64,000 bases of DNA from Asterochloris sp. CNOR1 (taxonomy: Eukaryota; Chlorophyta; Trebouxiophyceae; Trebouxiales; Trebouxiaceae), in contig OZ017763.1 in NCBI GenBank assembly GCA_963969365.1, positions 992,001 through 1,056,000 on the forward strand, in the 5' to 3' direction. Numbering within the stretch: the stretch's first letter is position 1; each line of letters opens with the position of its first letter. A program made the position numbers and the translations under genes. Positions 2,818-63,629 of the stretch are shown in pieces. Below the pieces are notes generated by a model. The model saw nothing but the letters and a program-made list of their open reading frames with translations. It was not told the DNA's origin and searched no databases.

Positions 2818-5800
2818 TCAGGCGACAGCTTGCTGTAATGCACTGGACACAGAGATCTCCAGGTCCTCTGCTTTGAGCTGCTCATGGGGCTTGGCCTCAA
2901 TGCGGGCAAAGAGCTCAGTCATCATGATCATGAGCTCCCGCGGGGTGCTCAGGCGAGACAGGTAGCCAGAGAAGTCCGCCACACTGACCTGCAGGTGCTA
3001 GCAGCGTATCCACTCAGCATGAAAATCTCAAATGACTCCCATGACAAGTATGCAGAGTTAAAACCCCGCATGGATGCTGACGTGGCAGTCATCTGCCTTG
3101 CATAGGCGAGCCCTGTGCAGAAGAGTGCAGATGTCATGCAAGATCAGCCCCTGACAAGCAGAGGAAAAGCAGGGTTCAGGGGACCAGAAATGCTGCAGAG
3201 GGCCGGCAGGGTGCACAGGGTCAGCAAAAGGGATTGCACAAGGAGGCCAGCCCGACTTTGCAGTCAGTGCGCAAGCAGAGCCCAGCCTGCTGCACGGTCC
3301 ACAGGAAGCGACACACATGTGCAAGTTGCTGGTTTTATACAGGAGGCGTATTGAAAGCAGCAGCCATGCAGGCTGCATCCCCCACCCGCTCTGCACCAGG
3401 GGCACGGTTGCCCACCTTCTTGAAGAGGTCATTGAAAGAGCCCTTGAGCGCCTCAGCATTCTCCCCTGAGCCGAGGGCCTCCCCAGCGGCCGTGCCCCGC
3501 GCGGCTCGCTGAGCCGCGATGAAGCGCCGCTTCGCCAGCTCCTCCAGCTGATGTCGAGACCAGACCAGGTCACGCACGAAATGCCTGTCAAAGCGCGCCT
3601 CCTGCAGCAAGTTGAGGGTCATGCTGACATGTTTCTGTGCTGGCATAAAAGGGAGAAGGCTGATTAAAGTGGCAGGTGGAAGCAGATCCTGCAGACTATG
3701 GATGGCAAGACCTGTTGTGCGTGTCAAAGCGCGCTTCCTGTGGAGCAACGAAAAGGGTCTCCGTCAGGGCATATCAGGACCAGAGATGTTCTCCTTTGCA
3801 CCACAGCTGCTGGCATGGTGAGACGCCTGCAGAGTTGAGACTGGTGAACAATGTCCAGCCCACTGGACACCAGGTGGTACAGTGGCCAGTTTCTCCAGCT
3901 GGTGGCGGCGCCAGACCAGATTGTGCCCAAAGACCCTGCTGGGGTTGAGCAGCCTGCAGGGCAGGGAATTGGGCTGCTGCCTCCAGGAACAACCTCGGTC
4001 CATCCTGTTGAGAGCTATGGCTTCAGATGCTGCCCCTGCCCAGGCTTCATCCTTATGCAGCCTCCAGGAGGATGAAGGGCAGCCTAAATATTCTGCTGCC
4101 AGATGACTGGAAACGCCTCCAGACACCTCAAAGCAACGCCACCTTGAGAGTCTTGTCAGTGTTTAGATCCAGGGACATGCGAGAGTCGGGGAAGAAGAAG
4201 TGGAGGCGCCCAAAGTTGAGGAGATCATTGCGGCAGATCTCGCGTGCGAAGGCCTTCATGGCCCCCGGATACTGGACTGGGTCCAGCAGTACCACCTGCA
4301 AGCAAACAGAGTGGTATTTGTAAAGGCTTCGTGCATGGGTGAGAAGGCCTTCCAAAGTCTGCATTCAGCAGCAACCCCTGGAGGCAGGCCAAGAAGCTTC
4401 GAGCAAGTACACGCTTTGTAGCACATTTGCAGGAGACTCGCATGGTGACGGACTACTGGACAAGTTCCAGCAGCATGATTTATAGCTAGAGGCAGGCAGC
4501 TGACTGCAGGGATTGCTCCTGACGGATTCTTTGAACACGACTGCTCCGAAGTGTGCAGCAAGAACACTTCCTCCCAACAGATCTTGCCTGAAAGGCCTTT
4601 GTGACGCTCAGGAACTGCACTGGGCAGCACCACCTGCATACTCTTCTCCTCATTGAGGACAGGCCTGTGGCGCAAGCTGCAGCAACAGCATGATATGCGG
4701 GTTCCAAACAAATGGACCTGGCCCCAGTGCTGGGGCAGCGCCCTCAAGCAGGTGCTGAACACAAGCCAATATCCATGAGGCTGCTGGCTGTCCTTGGCAA
4801 CCGCTGAGTTTGAGACTGAGGGCCACCTGTTGTGTGCAGAGGGAAACCAGCCTGACAGGCAGCGGCAAGAGCAGTGGGACCAGGACCAAGGAAGGCAGTA
4901 TCCAGCAGGTGCTCCCTGTCAGAATCCCTCCAGGGACAGGCAAGCCGAAAGGAGGCCCACCCCTCCTGCCACCCCTGACACTACAGATGGCTTTTGTGCC
5001 CTCTCAAACCTGAAACTGGCAGCTGACTCACCTCGTCAAAGCAGTCCCCAAAGACGGCCAGAGACTCGTAGCCCAGCAACTTGACCAAGGAGGACAGCAG
5101 CTCCAGCTTCTGGTGGGCACTCACGCCCACATAAATGCTGCGGATGGTGTCTGCGTGGTCCTGCAGCAAGCACAGCCGTCATCTGTTGTGCTACGTTAGC
5201 AGTCGTGCAGCTATCCCTGCCACCAGAGATGTCTGCAGGTTTCTACAGGAGCAGAATTTTGTCTTCATTAAACCCAAAGGCATGCTGGCAACCAAGCGAC
5301 GGTCCTTCCAAAGCGCCACGGCCCCACATCTTGCTATGCATCCTGACTGCCTGATCAGGAAGGCATCCGCTGCCTCATCTTTTGGAGTTCTTTGTCAAGC
5401 GCTGCTGTGTGCAAGATGAGCCATTGTCAATTGTTTGCAGTCTGGCAAGGCCATGTTATCCTGGGCTACTTTGCAGCTATTGCCAATGTGCTGCGGATGA
5501 GAAAGGTATTCAGTGTGAAGCAGGCATGGCTATCTTTGCAGGCCTTGCTGCACAATCGGCCCACCTGCATGCTGCACAGGTGATCCAAGAGCTTGGCCAC
5601 CACAAGGCTGGGCTGGGCCTTGACAACTCGGATGTTGTTCTGCAGGTCGACGGCTCGCTGCAAGGAGCGCTGCTTGGCCCACCTGCATCACATGCGGTGT
5701 GGCTTTCAGTGCACGACACAGGGTGGGCAGGCACTGCACTGTCCTCCTAAAGGGAGTACAGCTTTGCTGACCAGCAGTGGGGCCTCCAGGCGGGGCAGCT

Positions 5801-8800
5801 GTTCTGCAGCTTCATGTCCTGCCGTAGGCAGCCTGCTGGACTCACCTGCACCACGTCCACAATGGCATGTGATCCATGCATAAACAAGCTGCCCAGCCCT
5901 GCTATCCCCAGCAGATCTCTGGCACACAGCAAGCCGCCCAGGCTGCAGCTGCCTCACCTCTTGTAGTAGGCTGCGCCTCCAGCCACTGCAGCTGCTGCCA
6001 CTGCAAAGCTGATGCGGGGGTGCGAAGTGAGAGCGGGCGCCACTCTGTCAGCCTCATCCCACACCCTGGAGAGCGGGGCTGTGACGGCGTCTGCCACCTC
6101 TGGGCTCCGCGCAGCGTATGTGGTGCCTACAGAAGGGAATCACACCCTGTTCTGAGCTCAAAGCAAGCAGGACTGGAGATACGGTAGATGCATTGCCTGG
6201 ACTCTCCGCAACATTGTACTGCATGCAATGGTGAACCCTGCCCGGTGCTCCTTTGGTGTGTTGAAAGCCACCTTGCGGCAGTTCTAACTCGTGACGGCAG
6301 CTGAACTTTGCTGCACGCGACAGGTGCCTGCTTCTGCGGGGACGCAGCACGCCATGCAGCATGTGCACTCTGCCCGCAGCTGCAACTCTCAGCAGAAGCC
6401 TGTCTGCCGAAACGCATCAAGGCTAACATCTCAACAGTTTGACCGAGCACTCTGCTCACCAACCACACCCACTGTGCCGACCGCTGCCGCGGTGCCTATC
6501 TGCACAGCACTCCAGCGCGGGGGCTGCAGCTCTTCCCGCAGGCGTGCCAGGGAGGCTGCGTCTGCTTTCTGAGAGTAGAGGTGGGCCAGAATGAGAAACT
6601 GCTTGGAGGCGCGGGGGTCTGCCTTCACCTGCAGGCAGTCAGAGTTGAGCTTCGTGCCTCACCCCTTAGGTGGTCAAGTACCTTGCTGCCACAGCCGGCC
6701 AGGCCTTCATCACCCGGCGACTGCCGGCCTGAGCTTGCAGGAGGCACAGGCATTGACTTGAACACAGAGACTTGCAGGGGATCCAGGATCATCATCTGCT
6801 TTGAGGCGCAGGGCACTGCCTGACGCAGATGATGCTGGACTGTGCAACTTGCGACAGTATGCCTGAGGGGGCACTGACCTCAGACAGAGCTTTGTGTTGC
6901 CCATTACCTGGCCACAAAGAGCAGCGAGGGCTAGTGCCTACACCTGCACGGCCTGTGGGTGTGTTGCAAACCAAGTGCTGCAGCAGAGCAGGTGCGGGAT
7001 CAACTTTGCAGGCCCAGCTTGGGAAGTGCTGCAGCACACTTTGCTTCCGCAGAGCGTGGTGCACACCTTTCCCACATAGTGTACCGTCCTAGCCCAAGAT
7101 AAGCTCACTCCATCAAGCATGTCTCCCTTTCTTCCTTGTTGTATGGATTGCTCATTGCGTCCACCACAAGCAGGCACCAACTTTCAGGTGAGACGGTTTT
7201 GGCCAGTGCACGACGTGCTGCGCTGCAGGCTTCTACAGGCCCTTGCCCTTTTGAACGCGGGTCACACCAAAACACAATCTCTAATATTATCAAGGAAAGT
7301 TTCTCACCCTGTCAAGCATGTCACGCCCGTCCTTGCTGTTCACATTGCTCACAATGTCCATGACGGCTGTCACCGCGTAGGACAGGATGCAGTCCACCAC
7401 GTCCACACTGGTCCAGAACTCCCCTGCATCCAGGATTTAGGGTTCAGGAGTCAAGCAAACGCCAGCAGTGCCCTGCAGGCGGACACCCAGGGTCAAGCAG
7501 TGGCTGCTGGTAGAGGCTGACAAGCACTTGTAGTATCAATTCACCACAGCCCTGCTCAACCAAGACTCCCCTGAAGACAGCATCTGGGGTCAGGCAGTGG
7601 CTGCTGAGAGACCTGAAAGCCAGATGCAGCGTCAGTCCACCCCAGGCGCGTCTCTTTAGAAGCCCCTGGCAGGCAGTGCTCACCAGCCTGGGCGTCCCAG
7701 TAGGCATCACTGCAGGTATTTGGTTTTGGTGGCTATGCATCTTTTAGCTAGCCTGGCTGAGATCTAGCGTTAGCCCATTCTGGCATATGTTAAGCAGGCA
7801 ATGCTCACCAAATTGGGCATCCCAATTGTCGTCGGTGCAGTGTATCCGATTCTGGAAGCTGCGCAGGCAGATGGTGAGGTGCCCCGGGCGGCACATGTCC
7901 ACCATGAAGTGGCCATATCCCTTTCCAGAGCTTCGCACGTGCTCGTTGTAGTCATCATAGACGTGCTGCATCTGCAAGCAGCAAGTCATGAGTAGCTTTC
8001 ATAGAACTACAGGCCCCCACTGGAAGTTGTCGAGCATGTCCAGCAGCCTCAAGCAGGCAGCCAGCACACAATGTATGAATGCTGGTTCTGGTCACCTGCC
8101 CTGGCTGCACCTGCACGCAGCTAAGAAGCACAAAAAGTGCATCTGCTAAGGTATGCTTGGTAAGGTGGCCAGACCCCTTTCCCGAGCTGCTCACATGCAT
8201 GACATCATCATTGTAGATGTGCTGCCTGCCGAGACACAGAGATGCAGCTCAAGGGCGGGCCGGACCCTTTGCAGCGTGCTGCCTGCCAGCAAACGAGATG
8301 CTGCGGCACCTTTGACAAAGGGGAACCTGTCTTCTGCAGGCAGGCAGAGCGCATTCAGGGCAGCCAAACGTCAGGCAGACGCAAGGCAGTGCAGACAGCC
8401 CCACTCTTTGATTGCGTACATGTTCCTGCCCCATGTGCCTGCAGACAGACTGCTCCAGAGGGGTGCTGTGTACGGGTGCTGTCGAGAAGCCTGTCATGGA
8501 GGCCTTTCTGTGACCCCTGTGGCACCCCCTCCTGGCCTGCTGGCCCCTCTGTGCCTGCCGTGAGGGGCCCCCTCCTGGCCTGCTGGCCCCTCACGGGACG
8601 CACAGAGGCTTGCCTGTGCCATGGTGGCACATACTTGGTGGTGCCTTTGTGCTTTGGCTGTGTAGGACGCAGTCCAGCAAACTAGCCCCCTGGTCTAGAT
8701 GAGGCCCTGCATGAGCAACCTAAAAACCCAGTACACAGCCCTTGGTTGAGGTCAACATCCCCTTGATTTGCTGTCTGCCATCTGACGGCTGCAATGGTGC

Positions 8801-9212
8801 ACTGAGAGAGACCTTAAGCTGCTGACGGCCTGAGCATTGTGACAGGTCCTCCCTGTACCATGCCACAGAAGGCGTGAAACCCACCTGCATCCTGATGGTG
8901 GTCTTCCCAGAGCCCCTTTTGCCAAAGAAGATGTAGGTCGTCTCTGCAGCTCAGGCACATGACTGTGAAAAAGAATCCTCAAGCACTGTGCCGATTTACC
9001 AAGCATGAGCTGAGCAGGGCATGCATGCACACTGCTGATGCCCTGCGCTGGCATCAAGCAGGCCTACAGTTGCTTTTACCTGAGGGCTGGAATCCCTGCA
9101 GGTCTGAGTGCACATAGAGGGAGGTGCCATCTAAAAAGGTCTTCTCAGCTGTCCTGTCTGTGAAAGGGTTCCTGGACAGACCAAACTGCTCTAGCACATC
9201 GGTGGAGGGCAT
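2818..9212 (-). CDS. P-loop ATPase with Walker A and B motifs (Sll1717-like architecture)
   Basis: Eleven exons join in phase to 521 residues: 9212-9080, 8943-8885, 7971-7809, 7423-7308, 6628-6460, 6126-5958, 5682-5565, 5160-5032, 4295-4143, 3601-3416 and 2988-2818 (TGA). The N-terminus has an FGLSRNPFTDRTAEK motif, reminiscent of AAA-type ATPases. Walker A, GKRGSGKTT, is at residues 52-60 and a Walker B-like LAVFGDCFDE near 343-352. The order recalls the bacterial P-loop ATPase family named after Sll1717, but that is recalled, not searched. Two Gly/Ala-rich hydrophobic segments lie between the Walker motifs, near residues 200-215 and 252-268, so membrane association is possible. The C-terminal third is helical. 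It presumably hydrolyses ATP; its substrate is unknown. The start is the first ATG of the exon that opens the conserved N-terminus, and an upstream exon is not excluded. Confidence 0.8.
3715..3945 (-). repeat. Decayed copy of the ATPase exon 3601-3416 inside the intron before it
   Basis: On the plus strand, gtcaaagcgcgcttcctg near 3725 matches gtcaaagcgcgcctcctg at the real exon start near 3588. The stretch tctccagctggtggcg near 3892 matches the exon interior near 3540. The copy is not an open, in-phase exon. Confidence 0.7.
4570..4640 (-). repeat. Decayed copy of the ATPase exon 4295-4143 (acceptor side)
   Basis: The stretch aaaggcctttgtgac...ggactgcactggg...accacctgca, read with gaps, parallels the acceptor half of the exon near 4250-4300, including the tgcag acceptor word. 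It lies in the intron before that exon. Confidence 0.6.
7105..7165 (-). repeat. Decayed copy of the donor end of ATPase exon 7423-7308
   Basis: The words tcaagcatgtctcccttt and attgctcattgcgtcca follow the order and spacing of tcaagcatgtcacgcc and attgctcacaatgtcca in the real exon end (7311-7365). It lies in the intron after that exon. Confidence 0.6.
8153..8245 (-). repeat. Decayed copy of ATPase exon 7971-7809 (acceptor side)
   Basis: The block from gtggccagacccctttccc to gtagatgtgctgc runs parallel to 7908-7970 in the real exon (gtggccatatccctttcc to catagacgtgctgc). The translated remnant still reads SSGKGSGH beside the exon's SSGKGYGH. It lies upstream of the exon in transcript order. 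Confidence 0.8.
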
Positions 9213-9368
9213 GGAGGGCCTCCCTGCCCCTATTCCTGAGCGAGAGTGCTGCAGTGCAGTGCCTAGAGGTGCTGGGCAGCACTAGAGGATCTGGCTGTCC
9301 CCAGGTGTCAAGTGAGGAGGCGACACTGCAGATTGAAGCTCACGAGATCAGGTGTTCTGGCGGGGTTC
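9213..9368. promoter_or_regulatory. Probable shared divergent promoter between the ATPase and TAP46 genes
   Basis: The ATPase start on the minus strand and the candidate TAP46 start on the plus strand are about 160 bases apart with no other exon between them. No TATA-like box or other site is clear. The call rests on gene arrangement only. Confidence 0.3.
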
Positions 9369-12300
9369 ATGTCTACTAGCCTTCTATCTGGGTTGATTCG
9401 GCCAATCAATGGTCGTTCGCCTGGCCATGCTCCCTCCCTGCGACACACCTCACAAGCAGCTATTCCTAGATCAAGTCTGAGGCACAGCCCTCAGCATGTT
9501 GCACATCTCTCACCAGCATGGCGGAGTGACACAGCATGATGAGGTGTGCGATCTGCCTGCAGCAAATCCAGCATGGTGCAGAACGGCCAGGCACACCATC
9601 TGTCTTGATGAAATGTAGGACCTGCCACTGCCTGCTCTGTGGGAGCGTGCTGCAGGCATCCATGGGGAGGCAGACCTCATTGATGTCACCACTGATGAGG
9701 GCAGGGCATCTCTTGAGGTGAGCAGGCCGCTTTCTTGCTTCGTCCTAGACACTGTTGCGACTACCACCCTGTCCCTGTTCACAACACTGCTGCAGCCTGT
9801 CTCTGAGCTGGAGCATGCACGCCCTGAGAGTCAATTACCAGGGAGCCTGTTTTTGAGGCTGCTTGTGCTGATGGATACCCAGCAGTCCTGCTGACATGAC
9901 CCTGCAGGCTGGCATCCAGGCGCTGAGGCAGTGTCAGCAACAGGTGCAGAGACTGGCCCTCTTTTCCAGCAATGAGGATGCAGAGGACATCACATCTGCA
10001 GGTGAGGCCATGGCCCCTCACATGCCCATCATTTGGAACGCCTCTGGCCCATGCCAGCAGCAATGCTGCTTTGCACAGTGCGTCAGCCCCAGCAGGTATG
10101 CTCAGCCTTTGGTTCAATGACACACATGGGCTTCCTCGTCATGTCAGGAGCCCTCAACGCGGAGGCCAGTTGGGTCTGCTTGGCCTGTTGCTGATGAAAC
10201 GGACTTGCTTAGCTCACAGGCCCATGTAGGCCGCTATCAAGCCCACATGCCATTTAGATTTAGCCTTCTGGCATGCCTACAGCTCTCTGCAGGTAGGCCT
10301 GCTCCCATGCATGTGGTTGAGTTGTTGTCCAGCATCTAAGTGTATTGCCAGTGATGGCATGTCAGCAGTACCTTCAAGCCATCCGTGAAGTCGGTCCACT
10401 TTGGCTGCTGACCATTGACTGTCGTGATGTCCCCACAGCATGCACACCAGTCTTCATACTGCAGACCTCAAATACCTGCTGGTGCCAGCCTTCTTGGCAG
10501 ATCTGCTGGCCAGGACTCCTGAGCAGGAGCCCCAGCAGCGCCTGCACCTTGTTGGCCAGGCAGTGGAGCTGTACCGGCAGTGAGTTGCATGCACATCGCT
10601 CAGCATCTTGCCGCATCCCCCAGGCAGTGCAGCCATCCTTGTCGATATGTGGACTCATCTGTAGGTGGCCCTGGCAGTGCTGACTCTCTCAATGTGAACC
10701 CCTTGAGCAGCAGCTGTCCCAGCCAGACCCCTAGCTCTGCGGATAACCTGAAACCCGATCTACCATAAATATTCTGCATGCGGCAGCCTGGCCTCTAAGA
10801 GCGAGCCTCCAGATCGCACATGTGCGGACATGCCTGAAAACCTCCTGCAGCACCCTCAATCAATCTCATGCGCCTGCAGGGCTCCTCACCTTGCTGCATG
10901 TGTGTGGCCTGCTGTCAGACACCAGCAAGTACGCATGGGGCCCAGCGATGTGTTGCCTGCACAGCCCACATGCCAGATCCATCTGCCTGCAGATTGCTCT
11001 CAGTGCTAAACCAGTACAAGCTGCACCAGCGTCAGCTGGTTTACAATGGGACCACACTAGCCAGGTGCCGCCTGCACAGCTCACATGCCAAACAATGTGC
11101 CTGCAGGTTCATCGTTGTGCTGCACCAGTATGGGCTCCTCTCGCAGATCAGTGCAGCTGCCTGGGATGCAGACTGTCAGGACCTGAGGCCCCTGGATGCC
11201 ACCAGCCTTCGCCAGCAGAAGGTGGAGCGCTTCAAGCGGGACAGGGACATCAAGGCTAAGCTGCAGCAGGTGGGCTGCCTCCACCTGACCTTCAGCATTC
11301 AGGGCTCTTCAGTAGAGGGATTTTAGCAACTTCCATCTGCAGTCATGCGCGTGTGTCAAGCTCACGGCATGTGGTCCTTGCGCTAGCTGCAGATCAGGCA
11401 GCAACAGCTGCGTAGCCGGCGCCTGGCAGAGCTTCAGGAGCCAGGGCAAGCGGAGGGAGCAGCACAGCCCGACGATGCAGATGTGCGGGAGGCCTGGCTG
11501 CTGCAGATTGAGCAAAGCGCCCATCAGGCACTGGCCCAGCTTTCTCTGCTTAAGCAGGTGCGCTCTGTGGGAGTTGCAGGCTGCAGAAACCCTTGGGTCA
11601 GACAGTCAGATCCACAACTATCCTGAGGGTGAGATTTTGTGTTCCCTGACGGCATCTGGGCTCTACACTATGCTGTTCCAACCCATCATGAGCAACAGAA
11701 GCAGTTTGCCTTGTGCACTGCTCTATCTGCTTTGTTGTGGAGTCTCCAATGACCTCCTGGAGGCATGATGTGCCCTTCTTGATTCAGGCAAAGCTCAAGG
11801 CTCAAATTATGGTCCTACGCGTTTCTTTGCGCCTGTAGGAAGTGCAGCTGCTTCAGCATGCAGCTGCCCTGAGTCCTGAGCAGCGGGCGCAGCAGCGGGC
11901 ACCGTGCCCAGATGACCTGATCGCCCAGCTGCAAGGGGCGGCCCTCAATCTTGGCCGGGGCCAAACAGATCAGAGGCAGCAGCTGCGGGAGGAGGTCTTT
12001 CGGCCACATGTGGCCCTGCCCACCATCAGCGTGGAGCAGCAGGTGAGGGTGAGCAGACTGACTGCCGGTCGCTGGATGTCATTGGGCCTCAGGCATGCAC
12101 AGAGAAAGTGGTTCTGAGTGGGGGTCACATAGGGGAGCATGTGTGGCGAGGCCATTGTGAGGGCGCTGGTATCACCAAGACGCCATGGCCGCAATAGGGA
12201 GGCACACTGTCTGGGCGTTGGCATCCCCAGAATGGAAGCTGAAGCTGGCGAGCTGGTGACCATATGCACCTAGAGGCCATTGCTGACGGTGGCTAAGGGA

Positions 12301-18633: not shown

Positions 18634-18717
18634 CCTGAACATGAACGTGAAAGTACTTGTGGAGGCATGAGATGATGCAAGGATAGGCACCCCAGATACC
18701 TCGCGTAGCTGCATCTC

Positions 18718-23008: not shown

Positions 23009-26000
23009 TGCAAGCGGCCCATTCTTGAAAATGTATGCGAGCAATGCTTGACTTACAAAGGCACTGCCTGCTCCTGCCTGTGTGTTGTGTCCCTAAAAAG
23101 CTACATGGAGCCTGCCGCTCGCTCTGACCGGTCCTACCGCAGTCTTTGCTCTCAGCAAGTTTTTGCAACTTCTGCACCTCCTCATGAAGCTGCACAACGC
23201 AGAAGGCCATGCAGAACATGAAGAATCTGAAGAGGAAAGGCAACATCGTGACACTATCTCGGCGGGGAACAAGCTCATAGTATGCTTTGTGAAGGTGAAG
23301 CGCATTGCAGTGCATAAGTGACATATTTGATTGGTTGACTCTGGCCAGCTTGTGATACATAGGTGTGTGGGTTGAACAGTAAGGTTCGGTCAATCTGAGG
23401 CAGTGTTATGTCCTCAATCAGTGCAAACAAGCTTGGTCAGCTCCTGCAGGTCATGTTGGTGATCATGCATTAATGTATAGGAGTGCGACAGGACCTGCCA
23501 AAGCAGTGTACAATTCACAGGACATGCCAGGACGCCCTAGAAGCTGTCCAGGACATTCCAGCACCCTGTACTGCCTGAGGGCAGTACATATTTTGGGCAA
23601 GGCGCCCCTGCAAGGTGGCATGGAAACCATACCTGGACATGTGGAGCACGCGCAGTAGGGCGGTGTTGTCCTCCTCCAGCTGCTGGGCCCTGGCAGCAGA
23701 CTCCCTGGCTGTTGCCTGCGCAGCCTGCAGCTGCTCATGCAGCTGCTGAACCTGGGCGTCTTTGGCCTGCAGCAGTCAACAAAGTCTTTTCAGCGTGAAA
23801 TACACTTGCTGACCCACCTGGTTTGCCCTAGCATTGCCCAGGTCTTGGCAGGCTGCTCCCGCAGCTGCTGCACCTGGCCTCCTTGGCCTGGACAGCAGGT
23901 AGCAATGGTTTTGTGGGCAGATGTAGACTACACAGCAGGTTGCAATGGTTATCTGGGCAAATGTGCTCAAGGCCACAGCTTCTGAATCAACAGCCCTGGC
24001 AATGCCTCCCTCAGTTATGCTCCTGCAGCTGCTGCACCTGGGCTTCATTGGCCTGCAGCAGTCAGGAAACCATGCTCAGCTCAAAACTGCTTGCTGCTAC
24101 ATCTGCTGCTTGCCCCAGACAGTACAACCCCTGGCCGTGACTTGAGCAGCCTGCAGCTGCACTTGCAGCTGCCGCACAGGGGCCTCATTGGTTTGCATAA
24201 CAGCCATCAGTGTCAGCGTCAATCTGCCTGCCCTTATGGGGCAGCTGCAGCATCTGGGCTTCCCTGGCCTCCAGCAGGCAACAAGTCCTGGTGCTGCTCA
24301 GGTGGGCTTGCTGCCGAGCATGCCAATGAGGAGCTGCCCCGTGCCAGCAATGCAGTCCCCTTTGATAACAGCTCCTGGCCAGTGACGCAGCCGACCACCA
24401 GGTTCCACTGCTCAGACCGCCAGGTCCTCCGGCATGGATGCTCAGCATGTACAGTTCTACACGCACGCACATACATATGCACAGTGAAGCCTTGTTGGCA
24501 GCAAGGACATGGGATGGAACAGCAGCACTGCTTGATGCACCTCATGTCAGCAGCCAGGCCACTCACCAACAGCGATGCGCAGCGCAGCTGCTCTGAGCGG
24601 TGATGTTGCCAGAAGGCCCTGCCATACTTCATGAGTGCCTCGTCACCGGCCCTGACATGGCAGACTGTGAAGAAGAAGTGGTGCACGACTCCAGCATGAT
24701 ATACCTGCAAGAGAGTCAGTAAATCCTAGCCTGCCTCAGGTAGGCTGAAGAATGGAGGACTTGCAGGAAGGCAGGCAGACCAAGCGTGCCTCAACCAGAG
24801 CTGTGACTTGGCAGATCAAGGGATGAAGCATGACTCCAGCAGCGCACACTGCAAGGCAATTTGGTCAAAAATTGTGGGCAGGCAGATCATCAAGCTCATT
24901 CTGCAGTTCTGAGAGGCAGAGTGCATGCCCGTGCTGCAGCGACACAGGCGACTGTGACATACATGTGGTGCCTGACTGAGTTATGACTGACATGAGAGCT
25001 GGATCTTCTGAGGGTGTGATTACATCAGCACTGCAAGCACTGTCAATCTCAGCAGCAGGCTGCTGCATGCAGCCGCAGCATGTTGTCTGCCGGGCAGCCC
25101 TGTGCAGAGCACTGGCTGACATTGCATGCACCTGCCCTGCTGGGCAGGGAGGTGGCAGCCAAAAGTGCTCACAGGGCATGATGCAAGTTCTGAGTGTGTG
25201 CAGGAAAATTTGGTGGGGTGAGCGCACCTCCACATCAGTCAAATTTGGGCCCAAAGGGCAGCCCCGGCTGGAGTTAATGTAGCGTGTGTCATTGCCCAGA
25301 GCACAGGCGTCGACAGACAGGGACCGCTTCCAGCCTGCAGGCACAGCATAGCTGCTTGAAAGACCATGCAGTCCCACTTGTGACATGGGCAGCGACAGAG
25401 GCGTGGACTCTGTGACGGAGGGATGCCCCCCCACCTGCAGGCGGAGTACAGGCTGCTCAGATTGCCCAGAGAGTAGCTTGTGCCGGCAAAGAGACAGACT
25501 GTCCTGGACAGGGACGACCCGCAGCCTGCAGTCACAGCACAGGCTGCTGTGCGGGTGAGATGTGTCATTGTCAGAGGCAGAGACCCCAGCTTTGCCGCAG
25601 GAAGACAACCCCCTGCATGCAGGCAAAGCACAGGTTGCCCACAAAAGCGCTCATTGTGTGTTGCATTGTTGCCCAGGGTACAGACACCGACTTCAAGGAC
25701 TGCTATTGACCCAGGCAGTACTCAGGCCACATGAAGCAACCCCCAGGGGAATTGCTCAAGCAGCCTTGTGACGTTTGAACTGTGCAGCCTGCAGGAATGC
25801 TTCCATTTTGCAGGCAGGCAGGGTGGTCCCAGCCTGCACAACCCTGCAAAGCAATCCATAAGGCTTCACTCATGTGCAGGCCAGATCTCGCTTGCCCAGA
25901 GTCAAAGTGTTGGCCTGATAGCAGCTAGCCCACAACACAGAGAATTCCATGCAGTCCTGCAGCCCCATATGGGTCCGACCTATGACGACCAGATCGTTCT

Positions 26001-45900: not shown

Positions 45901-48900
45901 CTAGAGGTGCTGCTGGAGTGGGGTCATGCAGCCCTGCAAATGGGTCATGTTTCTCTTTAGGTCAGGCGCTGACTCCAAAAGCAAGAAGCAGGCATAGCCC
46001 AATCTCAGGCAGGTGCAGGCCTTGAAATTGTTGAGGGGTTTGGCTGTGGCAGGATACTGAGGCACTTGGCAGCCCGCATGGAGCTGCAAGATGTGGGTAA
46101 TACCGCCTGGCACACTACTGGAAATGAGGCTGTGCTGCTGCAGGAAGCTGATGTGCTTGACAGGCATCATGGAGAGCTGATTGACCTGGAGAAATTGGAG
46201 CAGGATGAGCTGAAGAGGCAGGTGGCTCTCTCCCAGCTGACAGTCAGCATCAGGGATGCTGCCGCGCTGCTGGCAGCCCAGCCCAGCTTCAAGGCAGCTG
46301 CCAGGCTGAGTTGGCTGCGCGACCAGCTGGCAGACCTGCAGGTGGGTGATTGTGGTGTCAGTGCGACACTGCTGATGTTGTCAGCAAGCTAGAGTGCCAG
46401 ATCTGCAGGTTGGTGCAGAGTAACACCAGCAGCTGCCTGCCGTGCCCTTGCTTTGCCAACAGCCGAACATCCCGCAGACTTAAGTATATCAATGGTGAGT
46501 GCAGCTCCTGCAGCTGTGTGTCAGCCTGTTGCTCTGCCAACAGACAGGTGTCACACAGCCCTCCGTGAGTCAGTGATGTGGCTGTGAAGGGCCAAGCTGA
46601 GACAAGGAAGTTGGCTTGTACAGAGGCCAACCAGATCTTGATGTCTTGTGGGCAAGCAGTGTGGCCCGCATGCCCGCCATGGTGCAGCAGCAGCCCCTGC
46701 ATGGGTCCCTGCTGGACTCTGGAGACCGGACGTGTTCCCCACACTGTCAGGCAGGTGCATACTTGAGCTCCAAAACCTTGCTGTGCCTCTACAGGTGTAG
46801 CCTCACAGCCTGCCGGCCCCAGTCAGGCACCTCCCTGCCACTGCTTCCTGACGCTGTCCATGACAACCTGCTTCCAGCACTGCAGGCGCAGCCTCACAGC
46901 CCGCAAGCTACAGCAAGGCACCCCCATATCATGATCAGGCTGTACCTGCCTGCTTAGTGCCTGCACCTTGTCCAGCTGGTGCCTGCAGGGTGCGACTCAA
47001 AGTCTGCCAGCACCTGACTGGCCTATGCCCCTCAGGTCCTGAACGGTTGTCCCCGCTCTGCAGGCAGTGCCTCATAATCTGCCAGCTCCAATGAGACACG
47101 TCCATGCAATTCTTGGGCAGTTCCCTGACAACAGCATCTGCCAGCAAATGCTGGCGGTGCTGCAGCACGGCCAGGGCATTCTCTCAGCTGCCATGCTGAC
47201 CCAGCAGCAGGAGCTGCTGGCAGCCTGCTTTGACGAAGTCTGTGAGCAGGTGAGGCGCTGCATGTCAGGGAAGTATGGCCAGACATGCAGCGTCGTGCAA
47301 CAGCCCTTTGCAGGGGCGCAGTGGTCGCTGTCACATTTGAGACCTCCAAAAGGGTCGGTGCTGGCAATGTGCAGCAGATGGCTTGTGTCTCCTATGTAGC
47401 TGGCAACCACCTGTCCAAAGCTCTCTGCTCAGCTGTGGTGACCTGCGCAAGCCAAATTTGCAGCGTGTAGACTTTTATATACAATATGTGGCATGCACTG
47501 CAGTCAAGGTGCTTGCAGCCCTGCCATCCTGTGTGTGGGTGCACGTGCCGCCCTGCGAGCATGCCCTGGTGCAGCACTGCTGCCCATACATGGCTACAAG
47601 TTGCTGTCCTGCCGGTGCAGGTGCATGCCCAGTCCCATGAGCATGCGGCCCTGCTGCGTGAACTCTGGGCGTGCACCTCTGCCCTGCTGTTCACCTGCCT
47701 GCACGAACATGAGCATGCCCAGCAGGGCAGCCGTGTGGCTGCCCATGCCACGGAGCAGGTGCAGGCTGTGGCACCACTGCTGCTTGCAGCCCACGAAAGG
47801 TGGGGCACTTTGCTGCATTCAGGCTTACCTGCCGTGTCGGGCTACTGGCCTTACCTGTGAAGGGGTTGCCAGAAGAAGCATACTGCAGAGAGCAAGCTCA
47901 GGATGGATCGTGGGACAACATCAGATTTATGCAGGCTCACTTACGTGTGGAAGCCTTCAGCAATCTCTCTGGTGGTTTGCACATACAATCCTTCTGTGCC
48001 ATGGCTGACGTGCCATTCTGGAGGCCTCTAAAGAGCACAGGTGGCAGGCGCTGTTGCACGCAGTGCTGCAGCAGTGGCCTGTCCTGGGTGCTGAGACTTC
48101 ATGCAAGCTGTGCAGAAGTGGTCAGCCAGTGTTTTAGCTCTATTTGCTTGATGCCTGGCGGCCTGCAGTTGCACCAGCACTTCAGCAGTGGTCTGATCTG
48201 GGTGCTACACTCTCATGGACGCTGTGCAACAGCGGCCAGCCATTGTGTAACTTTGGCTTTCTTGCTGCCTGGCGGCCTGCAGGGAGCACAGGTGGCGGGT
48301 GCAGCTGCAGGCTGCGCTGCAGAGGGAGCAGGAGCAGCACACCTCAGATGTGCGGCGCTGGAAGGACGAGTGCGAGGTCAAACAGGCAAGCAGCAAAGTG
48401 TTGCTGCCCACAGTGCATGCCTTGAGCTGAGCATGCATCCTCTGTACAAATGTGGTCAAGAAGGAACTCTGGCTGCTGCTTGTCTGCCCATCCGAGTGCA
48501 ATGGCAGCTGTGTCCTGGCTGTGGCTATCACTGCAATGTCTCTTGTGCCCCTGTGTCTGACACATGGCGACCACAACCACTGCCCGCATCCTGTGCAGGC
48601 ACGCATTGAGGTCATGATTGCTGGCGACATGTCCAACCGTGCGCAGACGCTTGAGAAGCGCAATGCAGAGCTGCAGGTGAGGCTTGTCACCTTGCTGTAG
48701 ACTTGCAAGCATGCGTCCTACGTGTGAGCCCAGACTGGCAGCCTTTCTTGGGGATAGCATGCGACAAGCTGCCCGGTGGCTTTGAGGCATGCAGCTGTCT
48801 TGACTCAAAGGCTGCCTGATCCCCTGCTGTTTAGGCTGGCGGCAAGATCTTCAGATTTACTGTTTGGAGTGAAGAAGGCCAGCAACACTGATGAAATGCT

Positions 48901-51900
48901 GTGTGAATTTCCAGGTTGACAGCATCTCAGGCAATTGTTCTGTACATCAATGCACCCTCAAAGTGTGGGTGTGCAGGGGGAGATGGAGGCGCTGCAAGTG
49001 CAGCTCCTGCACTTCAGGGCTGGCAAACATCTTGGGGAAGTGTATTGATTGTAAATTGATTGACAGCCGCTCTTTGTGCAGGTGGAGATGGAGGTGCTGC
49101 GTCAGCAGGTTCAGCAGGTGCAGGGCGAGGTGGATGCAGCCAAGCAGCGGCACAACAAAGCGCGGGAGCAACTCCAGGCGAGTGTTACCTTCATATGCAT
49201 GTGCCCCATAAGCTGCATCAGGCGGGTGGCTCCAAAGCTTGCTGCCTCTGTCTGGTAGGTGGATGACATGCAGTGGAGGATGGCCATCCCCTTGAGCTTG
49301 AGCTGCACTTGCTGTATGAGCGCAGAGCCTCCCTCCATGCTGCTGATCGCACTAAAGCACAAACACCCTTCCTCTGAGGTATGACGCTGCTTGCTGTGGC
49401 CCAGAGCGCCACATCTTCTGCTCTGAAGTCAAAAGTGGCCTGCTAAGATTTGCTGAACCTCCCCGTATCCAATGTTTAGCACACCCTCTTGCGGCCGTTC
49501 GAAGCCGCCTCTGCGAAGGACCCAGCAGGCTGAATTACTCCCCTGACATGCCAGCATCCCCTGCTCCCCCAGGTGCAGGTCTTCCAGACACACAGCACCA
49601 CAGTGCACGATTCAACACAGCTCTATATTAGTACGTGCTGACCCCAAAGCCGTAAAGCATTGGGACTGACTGCCCCCTCTGTTGCACTGCAGGTCTTCCA
49701 GACAGCAAATGACACCACACTGTACAGGGAATCCCAGCTGCTTTGTGTGCTGTCCCCCCATGCCCGGGGCAGGCTGACTGCCTCCTACTCTGCAATGCAG
49801 GTGCTCCAAATGGAGAATGCTTCGCTGCACAGGGAGCGCCCTGCACTGACGCCGCGGCCAGCTCGGGAATGGGGCAACCTGAAGGAGCTCTTAACTGATG
49901 AGCATGTGAGCACACACAGCAGCGCGCCCTGCAGTATCTGGTTTGAGTACAGGCTCTGGAAAGACGGCTTCATGATATACAGGGGGCTGAGCACACAGGC
50001 AGGGCAGCTCATCATGACTCAGGCCCTCCCTTTCTCTGTTTCTCTCTCTATACATATACACTGCAGATGTCTCAGGAGATGCCAGGCTGACAGAGCTGTC
50101 TGTGGCTGCCTCTGCAGTTGATGCAGCTGCTGGACACTGCGCTGTATGCTGGCATCCCTCCAGCAGATGCTCATCTGCTGTTGATAGGCACCTCCAAATC
50201 AGGTGAGACTGATGCGCCAGTCACACTCACATCACCTCCCATCAGACCTGCACTGGCCCTCGCACCTGCTCCTCTATTGGCACCTCCAATCCTGGCAAGC
50301 AGTGCAGATGACATTGTGCCTTTGTACAACATTTCTCGTTGAGCACAATTTGGACAAAGCGGGTGCCCTGCTGGCCCTGCTGGCCGTGCAATGATTTGCC
50401 GTGCAGGCAGCTGCCTGCTTGTGCATGGCTTTAATAGTGAAGGGGCTCATACCTAGACGGCAGACTTGCACATGTCTATTCCTGCAGGCACCACCTTAGG
50501 CCGTTTCAAATACAGGCGGGCATCCTGCAGCAGGCCTTTGCAGAGGCCTAGCATGCCTGTCCAGGAGCTGCTGCAGGTGTTCACTTCCCCTGCATGTACT
50601 GCCTGTGGGCACTGACCTGCGCCATTTCCGGGGAGGCAGGCGCCTGATGTTGGACCTTGTGCAGACCAGAGGTGCTACCTCTGTGCTGCAGGCGCCAACC
50701 TTGGGCCATTCTTCAAGTGGGCGGGCGCCCTGCGGCAGACTTTTGCAGAGGCTGAGCACACCAAGGAGGGAGAGCAGCGCAAGTCCACCGTCACCCGCAA
50801 GGCTGCCATTGCCTACCTGCGCAACAGAAACACCATGCTCCTCAAGGTGCGGTTCTAGGCAGTCCCCCCCTACTCCTGCATCAAGTGCTTATTGTGCCGC
50901 CTGTGGCTGCATGTTCAAGTGGTAACCTGCCAAAAACGGGATACAGGCAAGGTGTGGCGCACCTGCTCAGGAGAGTGGTGTGGCAACCATGCTGTGGCTG
51001 TGAGTTAGCAGTTGGTGTGTCTGCATCACGAGGTGGACAGTGCATATGTCTTGCCGTCAGCTGCCCGGCAAGCGCATCTGCTGTCACCAGACAGGCAGCC
51101 ATGCCTCACTTGCATTATCAAGAACAAGTTGCTCCTCTAGGTGCAAGGGATCTGCTGCTTGCTTGGCATGACGTGGTACGGTGGTCGTGCAGCAGTTGCG
51201 CACCTGCATCACAAGTACCTCAGGGATACCATGGCGCCCAAGGTGCAGTGCGCTTTCATGTGGCAGTGTACAGGTGGGTCGGTGGGCCAGCACACCCAGT
51301 GTCACCTGGAAGGCAACCACTGCCTACCTGCATAAGAGTGCAGCAGCGGTGCTCTGTTGCTGGGGCTTGAAATCCTGTGGGATATAGTTGACCAACGGTG
51401 AGTGCAAGCTGGTGCAGCAGTGATGTCCTGATGTGAGACACAGGCATGATGCTCAGGCAGGCAGTGCAGACAGACACCATTGCATGCAAGAGCAGTCTTG
51501 CAGATGTACTGCTGTGCTGGCCGGCATTGCTCTTGCAAATGTGCTGTGAAGCCATCTGAATTGTCAAGTGCTCTGCTGCCCCATTGCCCGACACTTTCCC
51601 TGCTGCATGGCCAGATTGAGGTCCCCCAACCATATGCTCAATCCAAAGTCCTCAGCGACCAGCAATCCTTAAGACCAAAGCCCTGGCAACTTTGTCTCAG
51701 GCTCACCGTTATGGTCTGCCTCTGCTGCAGGGCCAGATTCCTGATCAGGTGCTGGAGGTGGTGTCCTCTGCTGTCCAGTTTGGAGTGGACCCTCACAGCC
51801 TGGTGACGCTGCTCAATGGCAACGTGTCAGACAGCGGGTTTGACATCACGCCTTACAGGGACCTGGGGGCTGCTCTGAGCAGCGTGGGGGATGCCTGGCG

Positions 51901-54900
51901 CGTCCTGGGGGGCCCCATGACAGAGGCTCTACGGGTGGGCACTGGGAGGCATCTGGCACAGCTTTGCCCCAAAAAGTGCATTGTACTGCGTGGCCTGGCG
52001 GGTGTTTGGGGGGGTTCGTGGTCAGGGCGCTCAGAAAAGGCCTGGGCTGGACCATGCCTGCTGTCAGCTCAGACCCACACGGGTGTATTGCCAGTGAGTG
52101 GCTCAGTGAGCTGCCTGTGTCCGCAGGAAGCCCAGACCAGCAACAGGGACTGCACTGTTAGCACCCATGCCCTGCAGCATGTGCTACAAGTGCTTAGCCA
52201 TGCTACACCCCTGACACCTGGACTGCGCATGCCTGCAGATAGCCCAGACTAGCACGCGGGACCGTCTTGCCGGCATGCAGGCTCTGCACCGCAAAATGCA
52301 GGGCGAGAGTGTGCAGCTGAGGCACCTGCTGGCAGGCGTGACTCACCAGCAGGAGGAGAAGGCTGCCAGGGAGCAGGCGCACAAGGAGGCGACAGCCAAG
52401 AGGAGGGATGCGCACCGGCATCCGCTCAAGGTGAGGACTCTGCTTCTTGCCGCCATCCTGTGCTGCACCCTGTTCGCCATGCACAGCAGAAGGTGGCAAC
52501 AGCCAACAGAGGGATGCGCATTGGCATCCACCCAAGATGGGGCTCTGCTCTGCTCAACCTACCTGGTGTCCTGAACCCTATCTGCCATGCGCAGCTGACG
52601 GCAATGGCTGAAAGAGGCGATGCACAAGGGCATTCACACAGGATGAGGCTCTGCTTCCTGCAGTGCACTGCCCTGCCAGCCATGCATGGCACCCAAGGCA
52701 CCTCGTCAGCTCACTTCAGGTGGAACGTGCCTATCTCTGCTTCCTGCCGTCCTCCTCTTCCAGCCATGCATGGCAGGCACGGTCTGACACTGCAGCTCTC
52801 AAGCTCCAGGCTGCCTGTCTGGGGGAGCATGAACATCTTTGCGTTGTGGGCTGTGCAGTTTACGTAGCTTGGCTTCTGCCACTGTGAATGGGACGGCCTG
52901 CACCAGCATCACTATACGCAGAGATCACAGCCATGCACTTGAGCATTTTGCTGGGCGTTGCTAAAGTTACGGACTGTGTGCAGCTTGCACATGCCCAAAT
53001 GCTTGCCAGCATGCTACCTGCCTGCCAGTGCTGCTCTCCAGAGCAGGCGCCTTGCCTCAGCACAGCGCATCAGGTGCACAGGAGCATGACAAATGCAGCC
53101 GATCGGTGCAACACAACACCAGACTTTGGGATGACAGTCAGGCTTGCGCTATCCTGCAGGAGTTTTTCAGTGTGCAGTGGGATACTGACGACTTTGTGGG
53201 CATGGGCATGGGGGAGGTGAGACTGGAACTTGCCTGCACGCAAGTACTGCTGTGCCTGATGACAGACAACCACAAGCCTGTGCGGCCTGAGCAGTGGTGC
53301 CGTGCCAGTCAGCTGGACAAGCATGTGTTGAGCTGGTGCACCAGGCCAAAGCTGGCATTGGGTAGCAAGTCGCCCTCTGCATCTTTGAGCATGCCTGTGT
53401 CTGCCCCTGCAGAATGTGCCCAAATTTCTGCGGACCAACAATCGCATCCGCAATCGTGGCATGGAGAAGGTGAGGCCGCAGCATAGACACATGTCTGCAG
53501 TGAAGATCTTTTAGCTCGAGTTGGAGGAGGTGAGCCAAGAATGAGGAAACATTTCTGGGCATTGTGAAAGCAGGCTGTTGTAACCTGAGCATCGGAGGGT
53601 GAGGCAGGATATCTGGGCATGGGGAGAGCAGGTGTTTGCAGTCTGGGCATCTGACTCCCCCACCACCTTCCCCATACATGGGTGCAAGCAAGCTAATGTG
53701 CTGCAGACAGATGCCCGGGGCCACAGAATCACAATTAGGCTCAGCGCTTATAGGGGGAGGGGAGGGAGTGCTGAAAGGCTCAGGCTGCTGCAAGACTGCC
53801 TTCTGTGTGCATGCAGATGCTGAGCTTACGGCAATATTTGAATGGCCTCTGATCTGACTTGCAGCGGATGTTGGAGGTGAATGGCTGCAGATCTTATTGC
53901 ACCTGATGCTGCAAGCAGATGTAGATCTTGAGCTCATGGGGAGGAGATCTGGGCAGCCTCGATTTCAATTTACAGCAGCTGCAACAAAGATTGGATCCCA
54001 ATATGCAGCATCGTGCTTGATGAGCACACTCTGCTGCATGTTACAGGCAGATGCTGAGCTGATGGCCAGAGAGATCTGGGTGGCAAAAGAGCAGTACGAG
54101 GAGACCAAAAAGATCAGAGTGCCTCTGGCAGACTATATCTACACACACCTGTCTAGGCAAGCATGTTTGTCGAAAGTGTTCCTTGTCGGACACGTCTGCG
54201 GTCGTTTTGTGCAGGCAATTTTGCTGTTTCTGCAAGGCATGTGCATTTGCTGAGTGCTTGCGGCACGCACTGTGGAACAGATGGGCAATACAGCGTCGTG
54301 AAGTTGTCTCTTGAGGCCCACACACAACAGGGCCAGAGCCCTGCAGGTGCCCTGCCTGGGCGCTCACCTGGCTGGCCCCTGCCTGGGCGCGTCAGCAGCA
54401 GGGCTTGCCGCAGTGTATTCCCGGCAGGGAGGGCTGCTTGCTGGGCATCCCTGTCCCCACCTACCTGTTCACGCAAGCGCTTACGTGCCCAACACTGTCC
54501 CAGCTGTCCAGGCAGACTTATATTAGCCACGGCGCTGGTACGTTTGCAGGACGTACCGACGCCATTGTGGCATCAGCATACTTCAGACCATTTCATTGTG
54601 GACCCTGAGGACTTGGTGTGCAGTGCTTTGAGCCACATGATGTGTGAGCCGCAGTCAGTGGTTCACTGGTCATTGAGGGTGGGCATCTTCCCAAAACAAT
54701 TTTGCCGGCATTGTGCACCAGCCTGCCGCAGGAACTCTGAAGCACCCATCTGGCGTCTAGCACTAGCTTTGGTGCAGTCACGATGTGGCATCCTGGCTGG
54801 ATGAGAGTCTGGGAGTGTCTCCGGGATGCTGCAGGCTTCTGCTTGCACAAATGAACATAGCTGGCCTGCAGGAAGTTGAGGCTCAGTTTCATGTCTGATG

Positions 54901-57900: not shown

Positions 57901-60900
57901 ACAAGGAGCTGAGTCGTCTGTGTGAGCTGGCGCTGGGGGAGGCCTGGGCAATCCCAGCAGTTGCTGCCCCGGTCAATGAGATGATCTGCAACATGCGGAG
58001 AGGGTTGCGCCCCAATGCCAGCAGGCTCGTGAGCCAGAGCAGCACGGCCAAGGTGAGTCTGCAAGCTGTTCATCTGGCAAGGAAGCAACTGGGGAGCTGC
58101 GTCTGCCTCGGCAGGGCAGCAGGAGGGTGCAGCTTGGTGCCACCTGGGTGACAAGCCTAAATGGCACAGGCAAGGGCATGACAGCCTGTGCCATAGGCGG
58201 GGCCCCTTGCAGTGCCGGGCTGCCCAACGCCTTGCCTCAGCATCATCCTGCGTCTGAGAGCCTGGGGGTGCCTCCACAATCAATCTTCAGCAGCAGCCAC
58301 TCGTGGTCATGCCCTTGGCAGACTAAAAGGTGCTTACAGCTTGAGCAGTGCCGAAGCAAGCCCCCTGGAACCAGCTCGCCCCTCTGGCCTGCATGCATCT
58401 GTGGCTGTGCCTGTGCTCTCCTGCAACATGGCCGATGTTGATGCCGTCAGCTTCCCTGCCTGTGATATGCCCCCTGTGCTTGGTAAGCCTGAGCAGCGCC
58501 TCATCACAGAAGACCCCGGCAACGGACAGCGGCGGAGAAGCCTGTGTGCTCCCTGTAAGGCATATTTGGCTGCCCCCTGCCACTGCCCTCAAGAAGTAGA
58601 CAGTCGTGGCCATGCCGTTTGGTGGGGTCTGTGCTCTGAGTACATACAACTTTCACCAGTGACACCCCTGGCAGCATGCAGTGGTGGCCCCGCTACCCCG
58701 CTTCCCCCTGGACTGGACACCATCTACCTGCAGGCTTTGTGCCGTCTTCCTGGTTGACCCCTCCCTTGCCTGCAGGCCGCGGTGGCCATGCCTTTTGGTG
58801 GGGAGCGTGGAGTGAGTGAGAAAGACGCTATGAGCAGCACTGGCAGGCGCGGCCTCAGCAGCACAGGACGGTAAGTGCTGCTCATGGGGGCTCAGACCTC
58901 TAAACATCTTGTGCACTGGCAGGAGTAGCCTCAGCAGATGGGATGCTGTTTTTTCTTGTGGGATCGGTCGCCCTGAGCATTTCAGGCACTGGCGGGCGCA
59001 GCCACAGCGGCACAGGATGGCGAGCCATGTTTGCAGGGTCATTTGACTTGTCTGCTGAAGTGGGCAAGCTTGGCACACAAGCCATGCTGCTGAGTACCTC
59101 GAGCAGGTGCACCTTCCCTGAGTTTGGCTGCTGGCTGTATGCAGCCCTGCAGATATTTATGGCATCGGGTTGTGCCTCTCTCGCATGGGCCTGCAAAGCT
59201 GTTGACTTGTCCCTGCATACGCTTGAAATGAGCTCAGACACTCAGTGCACCTCCTCAAGGTTTTACATGCTGCAGAGGGGAAGTGCAAATAGCTGTGAAT
59301 TGTGAGGGAGCGTGCCTCATCTTGCAGGACTTGGATGTCTGCTCAACATGCATACCAGTGGTATGCTGTTACGAAGTCAAGGCTGCCACTTCCAGCACAG
59401 GACTGCTTGCTGAGGCTGTGTGTGCTGTCTGCAGCTTGCGCAGCTTCAAGCTGCAGGAGAGCTTGAAGAGGCCAACAAGCGCCAAGGTCAGCCCTGCCAT
59501 GCCAATCAAGCTCTGCCAGCTTTAAACGCCTGTCACAACCTGATGTCAGCAGGACTGCACACTTACTTCCATGCTCTGATAGCAATGTGGGTTTGTGCAG
59601 CAGGACTGCTTAAACCCTAACTGCTGCTGGCCACAACTTTGAGTGCACGCCAGGGCATACTGCCCTATCCTCACTCTGTCATGCGCCAGCTGCATGAGTT
59701 ACATGCATCTAGGGCCATGAATGGGCAGCGTTGCCCGCAGCAACCTTAAACAAAACCCTTGATGGCGTAGCGCAGCAGCACCACCAAGCTCTCCTGCTGC
59801 AGTCCCCCTCAAGGCGCAGGCCTGGCACTGCAAAATCCTCTCCCACGAGGAGCCGCCCCAAGAGCTCTGGCGTCAGGGCTCCAGACCGTTCCAAGAGCAG
59901 GCACAACAGCCCTGACCGGGAAGTGGCTGCGCAGTTTGCCAACCTGAAGAGGGCTGAGGAGGCAGCTGCTGCCAGGACAGCTGCCAACTCCCAGCCAGGA
60001 CCAGCGGCCGGCAGCGCCGGTGCTGCTGCTGGCACTGACCAGTTCATTGCAGCCGTTGCAGCCGGAGCAGCGCAGGCAACTGATGCCCCAGCTGCTGCTG
60101 CCGCTGCGCCTGCTGTAGGCGCGCGGCCGCAGGGCGGAGTTGTGGCTTTAGATCAGGCAGGCAGGCAAGAGACTGCAGGCGCTGAGGCGGAGGCAGGTCG
60201 GGTTGCCGCTGACCAGGCAGGCACGCCACAATCTGCAGGCTCAGGGCGCCAGGCGGGTGCTGCAGGGCCAGACCAGGCAGGCAGGGCTCCATCGGCACAC
60301 CTGGAGCAGCAGGCAGCCACAGCTGCAGCCACCTGTCAGCCAGGTGGGGCCCAGTCGGCAGGCGGGGCCCACCAGGGGACCCTCGCTGCTCCGCCCAGCT
60401 CTCCGGCACCAGGTGCCATGTCACCCGCAGCTGGCACGCCACAGCAGGTGCTGCACAGAGGCAGCTCCAGCCTAAAGTTCCCAGATGGAGCAGGTACAGC
60501 TGCAGATCAACCTGCACTGCTGCGGAGCCCCCAGCTGAGGAGGGGGCTGTCGTTTAAGCAGCGCACCGGAAGTACTGCTTCTCAGGTGAGTCATCTGCGC
60601 AAAGTGTGTAGGTTTGCTCTGGCTTGCATGGTACAGCCTGAGCTGGGGACTGTCATGGGGCAGGACAGTGGAGTCAGTGTCTCTCTGGTTGGGGAGTCAT
60701 GTGTCCAGAGGGTGCTCACTTGCTGTGTGCAGCCTGCTTGAGGGGTCTGCAATGGGACAACACCTTCGAGGGGTTGCCTCTCAGATGAGGGGGCCAGTAG
60801 CCTGGGGCTTGTTCAGACTGCACGGTGGTGTCCCTGCCTCTCATGTGAGCACTGTCCTTCAGGCGGCGCAATGGAGTCTATGCCTCAAATGCAAGTGATG

Positions 60901-63629: not shown

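Follow-up and report, generated by a model that had tools for sequence, protein, structure and literature searches.

Decayed short-range copies of exon edges in the introns of the green alga Asterochloris sp. CNOR1

How do introns grow while the exons on either side of them stay intact? Intron growth is usually attributed to transposons or unspecified insertions. An earlier note on a 64,000-nucleotide stretch of the Asterochloris sp. CNOR1 genome (C18:992001-1056000; the window) claimed that its introns carry degenerate copies of the neighbouring exon boundaries, and we followed up this claim in the window and in 18 comparison stretches, each 10 kb long and each taken from a different one of contigs C1-C18 (1.99-4.47 Mb), of a genome that comprises 56.4 Mb in 21 contigs.

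The proteins of the window have their best matches in green algae, and the top matches of the first gene were a metagenome protein (69%), followed by Trebouxia (62%) and Coccomyxa and Chlorella relatives. Genome size and intron richness are similar to those of Asterochloris glomerata, for which excerpts of the genome report give 56 Mb and a mean of 9 introns per gene (PMC6652019). Searches with Rfam at the gathering threshold and with ARAGORN returned no match in the window. A metagenome protein (P0099, 305 aa) aligns to window positions 41710-42623 as two overlapping pieces, 92% and 99% identical, which extend from exon into intron, and this near-identity indicates that a public metagenome contains the same species or a very close one.

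Most exons used here were supplied by a gene finder self-trained, with strong priors, on the window and the 18 samples, which converged on CAG/GTGAG at donors and CTGCAG/G at acceptors (junction at the slash). Pfam matches were obtained for 5 of 7 predicted proteins or parts of proteins (TAP42, EF-hand, RsfS, metallo-beta-lactamase and SET). Because the gene models still include false exons, which are decayed copies, and a gene fusion, the edge and class tests were restricted to exons with coding log-odds of at least 6, which kept 297 of 531 exons and left out 234. An independent exon set came from homologous algal proteins, which located exons in two genes (18 exon pieces). In the first of these genes, tblastn with homologues matched 11 exons, from 9212 down to 2824, and the small predicted exons 8195-8225 and 8515-8579 received no match from any of the 8 homologues queried.

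Self-BLAST of the window at E<=1e-3 yielded 27 matches, 25 of which were direct and at most 502 bp apart, the other two being self-palindromes. A 57-bp self-palindrome, 84% identical to its own reverse complement, lies at 26234-26290. Banded Smith-Waterman alignment (score >=30) identified 84 pairs at distances of 25-700 bp in the window. Four far bands of equal width held 5, 4, 2 and 2 such pairs, and three dinucleotide shuffles of the sequence held 1, 2 and 2. In the 18 samples, 124 near pairs were found versus 6 in one far band, with at least one pair in 16 of the 18, and an additional stretch (L021) gave 6 near pairs and no far pair. From the far-band counts of 4 and 6, the chance share is about 10 of the 208 near pairs in the window and samples together. 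Adjacent 700-bp blocks across the same set displayed 76 direct matches and 5 inverted ones. Genome-wide searches with three examples returned matches at their own place only; since the search skips very common words, these local-only matches leave rarity unproven. The tandem repeat finder TRF reported 4 arrays in the window, with 2.0-3.3 copies each; a minisatellite or VNTR, that is, head-to-tail arrays of many similar units, does not describe this material, the TRF maximum in the window being 3.3 copies.

The two pair-free samples contain other reading frames. In L003, a reverse-transcriptase reading frame with an additional endonuclease domain occupies 4513-7962 (minus strand), and a further reverse-transcriptase frame lies in L014 at 8389-9999 (minus strand), indicating that LINE-like elements are present. 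In L015, a stretch of lower GC content (0.523), a virus-like primase/helicase reading frame of 830 aa with D5_N and Prim-Pol domains (3225-5714, plus strand) would, by its domains, be like a viral or mobile-element replication gene.

When the 208 near pairs were sorted by position, 109 joined a confident exon to non-exon sequence, 90 joined two non-exon sites, 5 lay within the same exon and 4 joined two exons, compared with 60, 130, 15.6 and 2.6, respectively, expected under random placement. For a test of the exon edges themselves, we compared the first or last 80 bases of each exon with the adjacent intron (at most 700 bp of it), using exons with log-odds of at least 6 and a length of at least 60 whose next such exon was 60-2500 bp away and excluding all others. 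Acceptor edges matched their own preceding intron in 27/242 cases, the following intron in 2/204 and length-matched introns of other genes in 2/2420; donor edges matched their own intron in 28/242, the opposite intron in 0/203 and introns of other genes in 3/2420. With both edges pooled, the counts were 55/484 for the own intron, 2/407 for the opposite intron and 5/4840 for other genes; the exon-edge copies in introns described in the earlier note are real. When all predicted exons, confident or not, set the intron limits, the counts were 25/212 for acceptors and 20/204 for donors. Matches were denser in the window (23/128 edges) than elsewhere (32/356).

The copies also follow a rule of direction, as the earlier note had stated: among the 109 exon-intron pairs, 61 were upstream copies of an acceptor side, 47 were downstream copies of a donor side and 1 was an exception. 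This count of 108 of 109 is partly geometric, as a short offset reaches the nearer intron, and the comparison of own with opposite introns is the stronger test. The 109 pairs fall on 65 of the 297 confident exons, so that arrays are counted repeatedly. Among the protein-located exon pieces, 7 of 18 carry copies, and all 15 of their pairs obey the rule. In the window, copies attach to 25 of 73 confident exons and occur in 5 of 6 predicted gene models, one of which fuses at least two genes; the figure of at least six genes given earlier is therefore plausible, though not established.

The first gene of the window, conserved in green algae and read on the minus strand, illustrates the arrangement. 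The acceptor side of its exon 3413-3601 (homologues by tblastn at about 3413-3607, gene model 3386-3601) is the source of two decayed upstream intronic copies, one at 3718-3740 (21/23 identical, CAG kept) and a second at 3885-3919 (28/35). The acceptor edge of exon 4143-4295, located by homologues and the gene model, is copied upstream at 4578-4638 (48/67), including TGCAGGTGG, and an acceptor-side copy of the protein-located exon 6460-6628 lies at 6783-6821 (30/39). Exon 7809-7971, also supported by homologues and the gene model, has copies on both sides: a downstream donor-side copy at 7669-7719 (40/52), whose match crosses GGTGAGCA into the intron, and an upstream acceptor-side copy at 8165-8225 (45/61), part of which (8195-8225) was called an exon by the gene finder and is skipped by homologues.

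Similar arrangements recur along the window. On the plus strand, the acceptor region 11059-11130 of exon 11107-11269 is copied in the preceding intron at 10944-11016 (56/73). On the minus strand, four decayed acceptor-edge copies of exon 23633-23766 occupy 23852-24284 at offsets of 122, 286, 426 and 502, a stretch for which the genome search returned no match elsewhere; an acceptor-edge copy of exon 27338-27505 lies at 27675-27759 (67/86), and a donor-side copy of exon 33718-33877 at 33586-33678 (67/95, offset 126). In the RNase Z-like gene, on the same strand, exon 38784-38950, located by homologues, has a donor-side copy at 38518-38624 (76/109) and two acceptor-edge copies within 39012-39313 (39012-39061 and 39280-39313). 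Exon 39928-40126 has three donor-side copies within 39660-39890 (39660-39705, 39748-39815 and one ending at 39890), and the last two, downstream of the exon, are weakly matched by homologous algal proteins (E 6e-4 to 0.3), a result obtained without reliance on the gene finder. Exon 41262-41459 has a donor-side copy at 41058-41116 (52/68) and two acceptor-side copies within 41560-41692 (41560-41608 and 41643-41692). On the plus strand, an abutting 115-bp tandem duplication lies upstream of exon 48283-48376 (48018-48282, with the acceptor-side copy at 48018-48071), its unit being matched in the genome search at these two places only. An acceptor-edge copy of exon 50692-50846, including CTGCAG, lies at 50482-50553 (58/75), and a tandem array of offset 107 runs from the donor end of exon 52239-52430 into the intron (52379-52655, 128/175), the genome search matching only the array itself.

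Matching exon arms begin or end close to the splice junction. Of the 61 arms whose partner lies upstream, 51 start no more than 25 bases from the acceptor junction; of the 48 whose partner lies downstream, 33 end no more than 25 bases from the donor junction. Arms extend at least 1 base beyond the junction into the intron in 47 of 61 and 31 of 48 cases, respectively. The junction could be mapped in 92 of the 109 copies. Beyond the splice motif, similarity of the intron flank rose above the 95% level of control flanks for 10/53 acceptor copies and 13/38 donor copies (6 and 10 at the 99% level), and did not exceed the 95% level for 43/53 and 25/38; a duplicated unit reaching well across the junction is thus demonstrated for a subset, the remaining cases being too decayed to tell. 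Offsets had a median of 148 bp, with 65 of the 157 pairs scoring at least 34 lying at 75-150 bp, and in 33 of 208 pairs the alignment length was at least 0.7 of the offset, which is the form of an abutting tandem duplication. The spacing of 80-160 bases proposed earlier describes 34 of the 84 window offsets, but the median there is 165 and many offsets fall outside that range. Likewise, the acceptor word said to be included in the copies is kept as AG in 34 of 53 mapped acceptor copies and lost in the rest, and the donor GT is kept in 20 of 39.

Retention of AG and GT is about equal to that of neighbouring bases, and there is thus no sign of selection against decoys. When scored as splice sites, 21/53 acceptor and 15/39 donor copies reach at least the lower quartile of genuine sites; on paper they are credible decoy splice sites, as the earlier note had suggested.

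We then considered how the copies have decayed. Exon and copy differ at 16.1% of first, 15.6% of second and 24.5% of third codon positions, and the excess at position 3 is what would be expected of a freely drifting copy and an exon whose changes fall mostly there. The claim that the copies are not open held in part: 40 of 109 contain a frame-shifting indel, but in-frame stops occur in only 7 of 1308 aligned codons. A simple model predicts 20 stops but takes no account of the depletion of TA in introns; a context model predicts 16 +/- 4, with 7 or fewer in 0.8% of simulations. Simple neutral decay does not predict this shortfall. Across the predicted introns of the window and samples, CpG stands at 0.33 and TpA at 0.45 of expectation and TG/CA is enriched 1.7, a composition that would fit CpG methylation and deamination. 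Each of the five same-exon pairs, which come from four distinct arrays, has an offset that is a multiple of 3, one array (60113-60297) extending beyond the exon end; the few cases are suggestive only that duplications inside exons survive mainly if the frame is kept. Exon-intron offsets are spread over the three remainders modulo 3 (45, 35 and 29 pairs), as expected if junction-crossing units are free of frame.

Young copies are scarce. An identity of at least 90% was reached by 5 of the 144 exon-intron and non-exon pairs aligned over at least 35 columns, and by 1 of 60 outside exons; a steady process should give more. Possible causes of this scarcity are an episode that is now over, the quick disappearance of new identical repeats, and selection against newly made ambiguous splice sites, the last of which is the weakest of the three because non-exon pairs equally lack young members.

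The reading that we consider very probable is that short tandem duplications arise in gene bodies and that those crossing a splice junction are tolerated, the spare copy becoming intron and decaying. Short direct tandem duplications, with offsets mostly of 75-150 bp and up to about 600, would hit gene bodies roughly anywhere. A unit straddling a splice junction would leave the gene with two copies of the exon edge, of which the spliceosome would keep the one joined to the rest of the exon, leaving the protein unchanged. The other would become extra intron, upstream of an acceptor or downstream of a donor, and would decay while the real exon side remained constrained, so that the match would last longest at exon edges; duplications inside an exon would survive mainly when they preserved the frame. 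Locality, direct orientation, the edge and direction rule and the decay pattern are observed, and at this sensitivity no far or dispersed relatives were seen. The reading further presumes that the copies are passed over in splicing and decay neutrally, and the duplications may have originated either in the repair of breaks, through fill-in synthesis and end joining, or in replication slippage.

Several other explanations share part of this evidence. The introns are rich in CTGCTG, CTGCAG and CAGCAG words, and composition bias or a dispersed element family could create a likeness between edges and introns; the far bands, the shuffles and the introns of other genes were, however, almost empty, and the three examples searched genome-wide matched local places only, which at this sensitivity refutes a dispersed family or introner for those examples, so that we give this explanation practically no weight and do not find the single dispersed family that the earlier note had named among the outcomes that would refute it. 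The copies might instead be alternative exons, or formerly alternative ones, produced by tandem exon duplication with mutually exclusive splicing. The low number of stops (7 versus 16-20) and the good splice sites kept in many copies speak for this, but exon arms cover a median of 21% of the exon, 1 of 109 covers at least 80% and none reaches both edges, frame-shifting indels are frequent, and nonsynonymous changes are at the level expected from per-position rates (431 observed versus 434); we therefore regard alternative exons as unlikely. Splice junctions could also attract duplication as true hotspots, with nicks or R-loops at the splice sites as one conceivable cause. The excess of exon-intron pairs over random placement agrees with such hotspots, as does the ratio of 109 junction-crossing to 84 intron-intron pairs, uniform unit placement predicting about 0.52 to 1. 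However, if the exon arm decayed like the copy (substitutions only), 26% of the junction pairs, about 29 of 109, would still be detectable, which is below the uniform prediction; slower decay on the exon side can thus explain the excess, and hotspots, which are not needed, appear improbable to us.

Intron gain shares the basic event and the local direct repeats with the duplication reading. In gain of the type proposed by Rogers, duplicated exonic DNA makes new introns, and the introns themselves are duplicated exon, which places the copied splice site at the other end of the intron. None of 100 testable pairs had the copied site within 30 bp of that end (9 of the 109 pairs, without a bounded intron of at most 2500 bp, were left out), and the median offset was 0.27 of the intron length; such gain is a highly improbable source of these introns, and the link to intron gain drawn in the earlier note was not borne out. 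The position and direction of the copies, the way they have decayed and their locality do support the lengthening of introns by tandem duplication across junctions, which the note had also proposed. Introns hosting copies have a median length of 672 bp (counted per pair) compared with 437 bp for all 252, and a copy was found at 1 of 77 edges facing introns shorter than 200 bp and at 46 of 271 facing introns of at least 400 bp, a trend to be read with the caveat that longer introns also offer more room to match. Of the predicted intron bases, 7.4% lie inside a detectable arm, which is a floor because older copies are undetectable, and slow exon-side decay means that intron-intron duplications are under-counted. 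That duplication is the main route of intron lengthening, as first stated, is not established by this floor. A larger scenario, in which a past genome-wide episode of tandem duplications of about 100 bp in this algal lineage was a leading source of intron length, with boundary-crossing units repeatedly converting coding edges to intron and leaving a large stock of decoys and still-open exon fragments, some of them perhaps still selected, is a tentative extension that we hold to be possible but doubtful.

That introns can be gained through tandem duplication is well known (PMC3443670, PMC2891723). Excerpts of two papers (PMC3443670, PMC4974935) describe the tandem genomic duplication model of Rogers 1989 and Hellsten 2011, in which, as here, splice sites and intron sequence both come from a local tandem duplication; in the model the unit is an exonic AGGT unit and the intron has about the length of the unit, whereas no pair among the 100 tested here fits. 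In the potato RdRp gene, tandem duplication across an intron-exon boundary created an intron (Ma et al. 2016, PMC4974935). There, too, the duplicated segment spans exon and adjacent intron, the potato unit comprising the 3' portion of the intron together with the 5' portion of the exon. Potato offers one case, with a new intron and a new donor, whereas here many old cases, on both sides of exons, appear to lengthen existing introns. A segment of exon plus intron was found here as well, with long crossing only in the subset whose flanks exceeded the 95% control level (10/53 and 13/38). As to a leftover small exon of the potato type, one apparent extra exon, 8195-8225, is a copy that homologues skip. 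Of 31 novel intron positions in Drosophila, 5 were attributed to tandem duplication (Lehmann et al. 2010, PMC2891723); regional duplication inside genes alters intron structure in both settings, but the Drosophila cases, in the part of the article available, concern new positions within coding sequence, unlike the lengthening seen here.

The Exonize catalogue of 20 eukaryotes lists intronic, inter-boundary and degenerate exon duplications, with fewer in lower eukaryotes, and its degenerate exon-like matches in introns of the same gene, some across boundaries, resemble ours; the excerpts of that work describe neither a role in intron length nor an edge and direction rule (PMC12343006). As for the source of the units, work in mouse and human cells, again in excerpt, attributes small tandem duplications to break repair with fill-in by CST and Pol alpha-primase: in mammalian cells, breaks with overhangs lead through fill-in synthesis and end joining to short tandem duplications, and insertions that occur naturally in humans and plants point tentatively to single-strand breaks nearby as their source (PMC8355091). 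By analogy, these short, direct, tandem duplications may be a plausible source of the units here; that work is mammalian and its excerpts do not treat introns, and breakpoints in our copies are too decayed for a test. Among the matches listed in the open-licence literature, we found no report that traces intron length in algae to copies of exon edges. The apparent novelty lies in how dense the copies are in an alga, in the rule of edge and direction, and in the outcome of longer introns with unchanged exons.

Spare copies of exon edges thus offer one way in which introns grow while exons stay intact. The source of the extra intron DNA is directly readable here, the constrained exon serving as the reference copy, and if the pattern is true genome-wide, intron lengthening could be measured event by event, with direction, unit size, age and decay of decoy sites. 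For annotation, the copies carry a warning: a gene finder may call decayed copies exons, as happened at 8195-8225.
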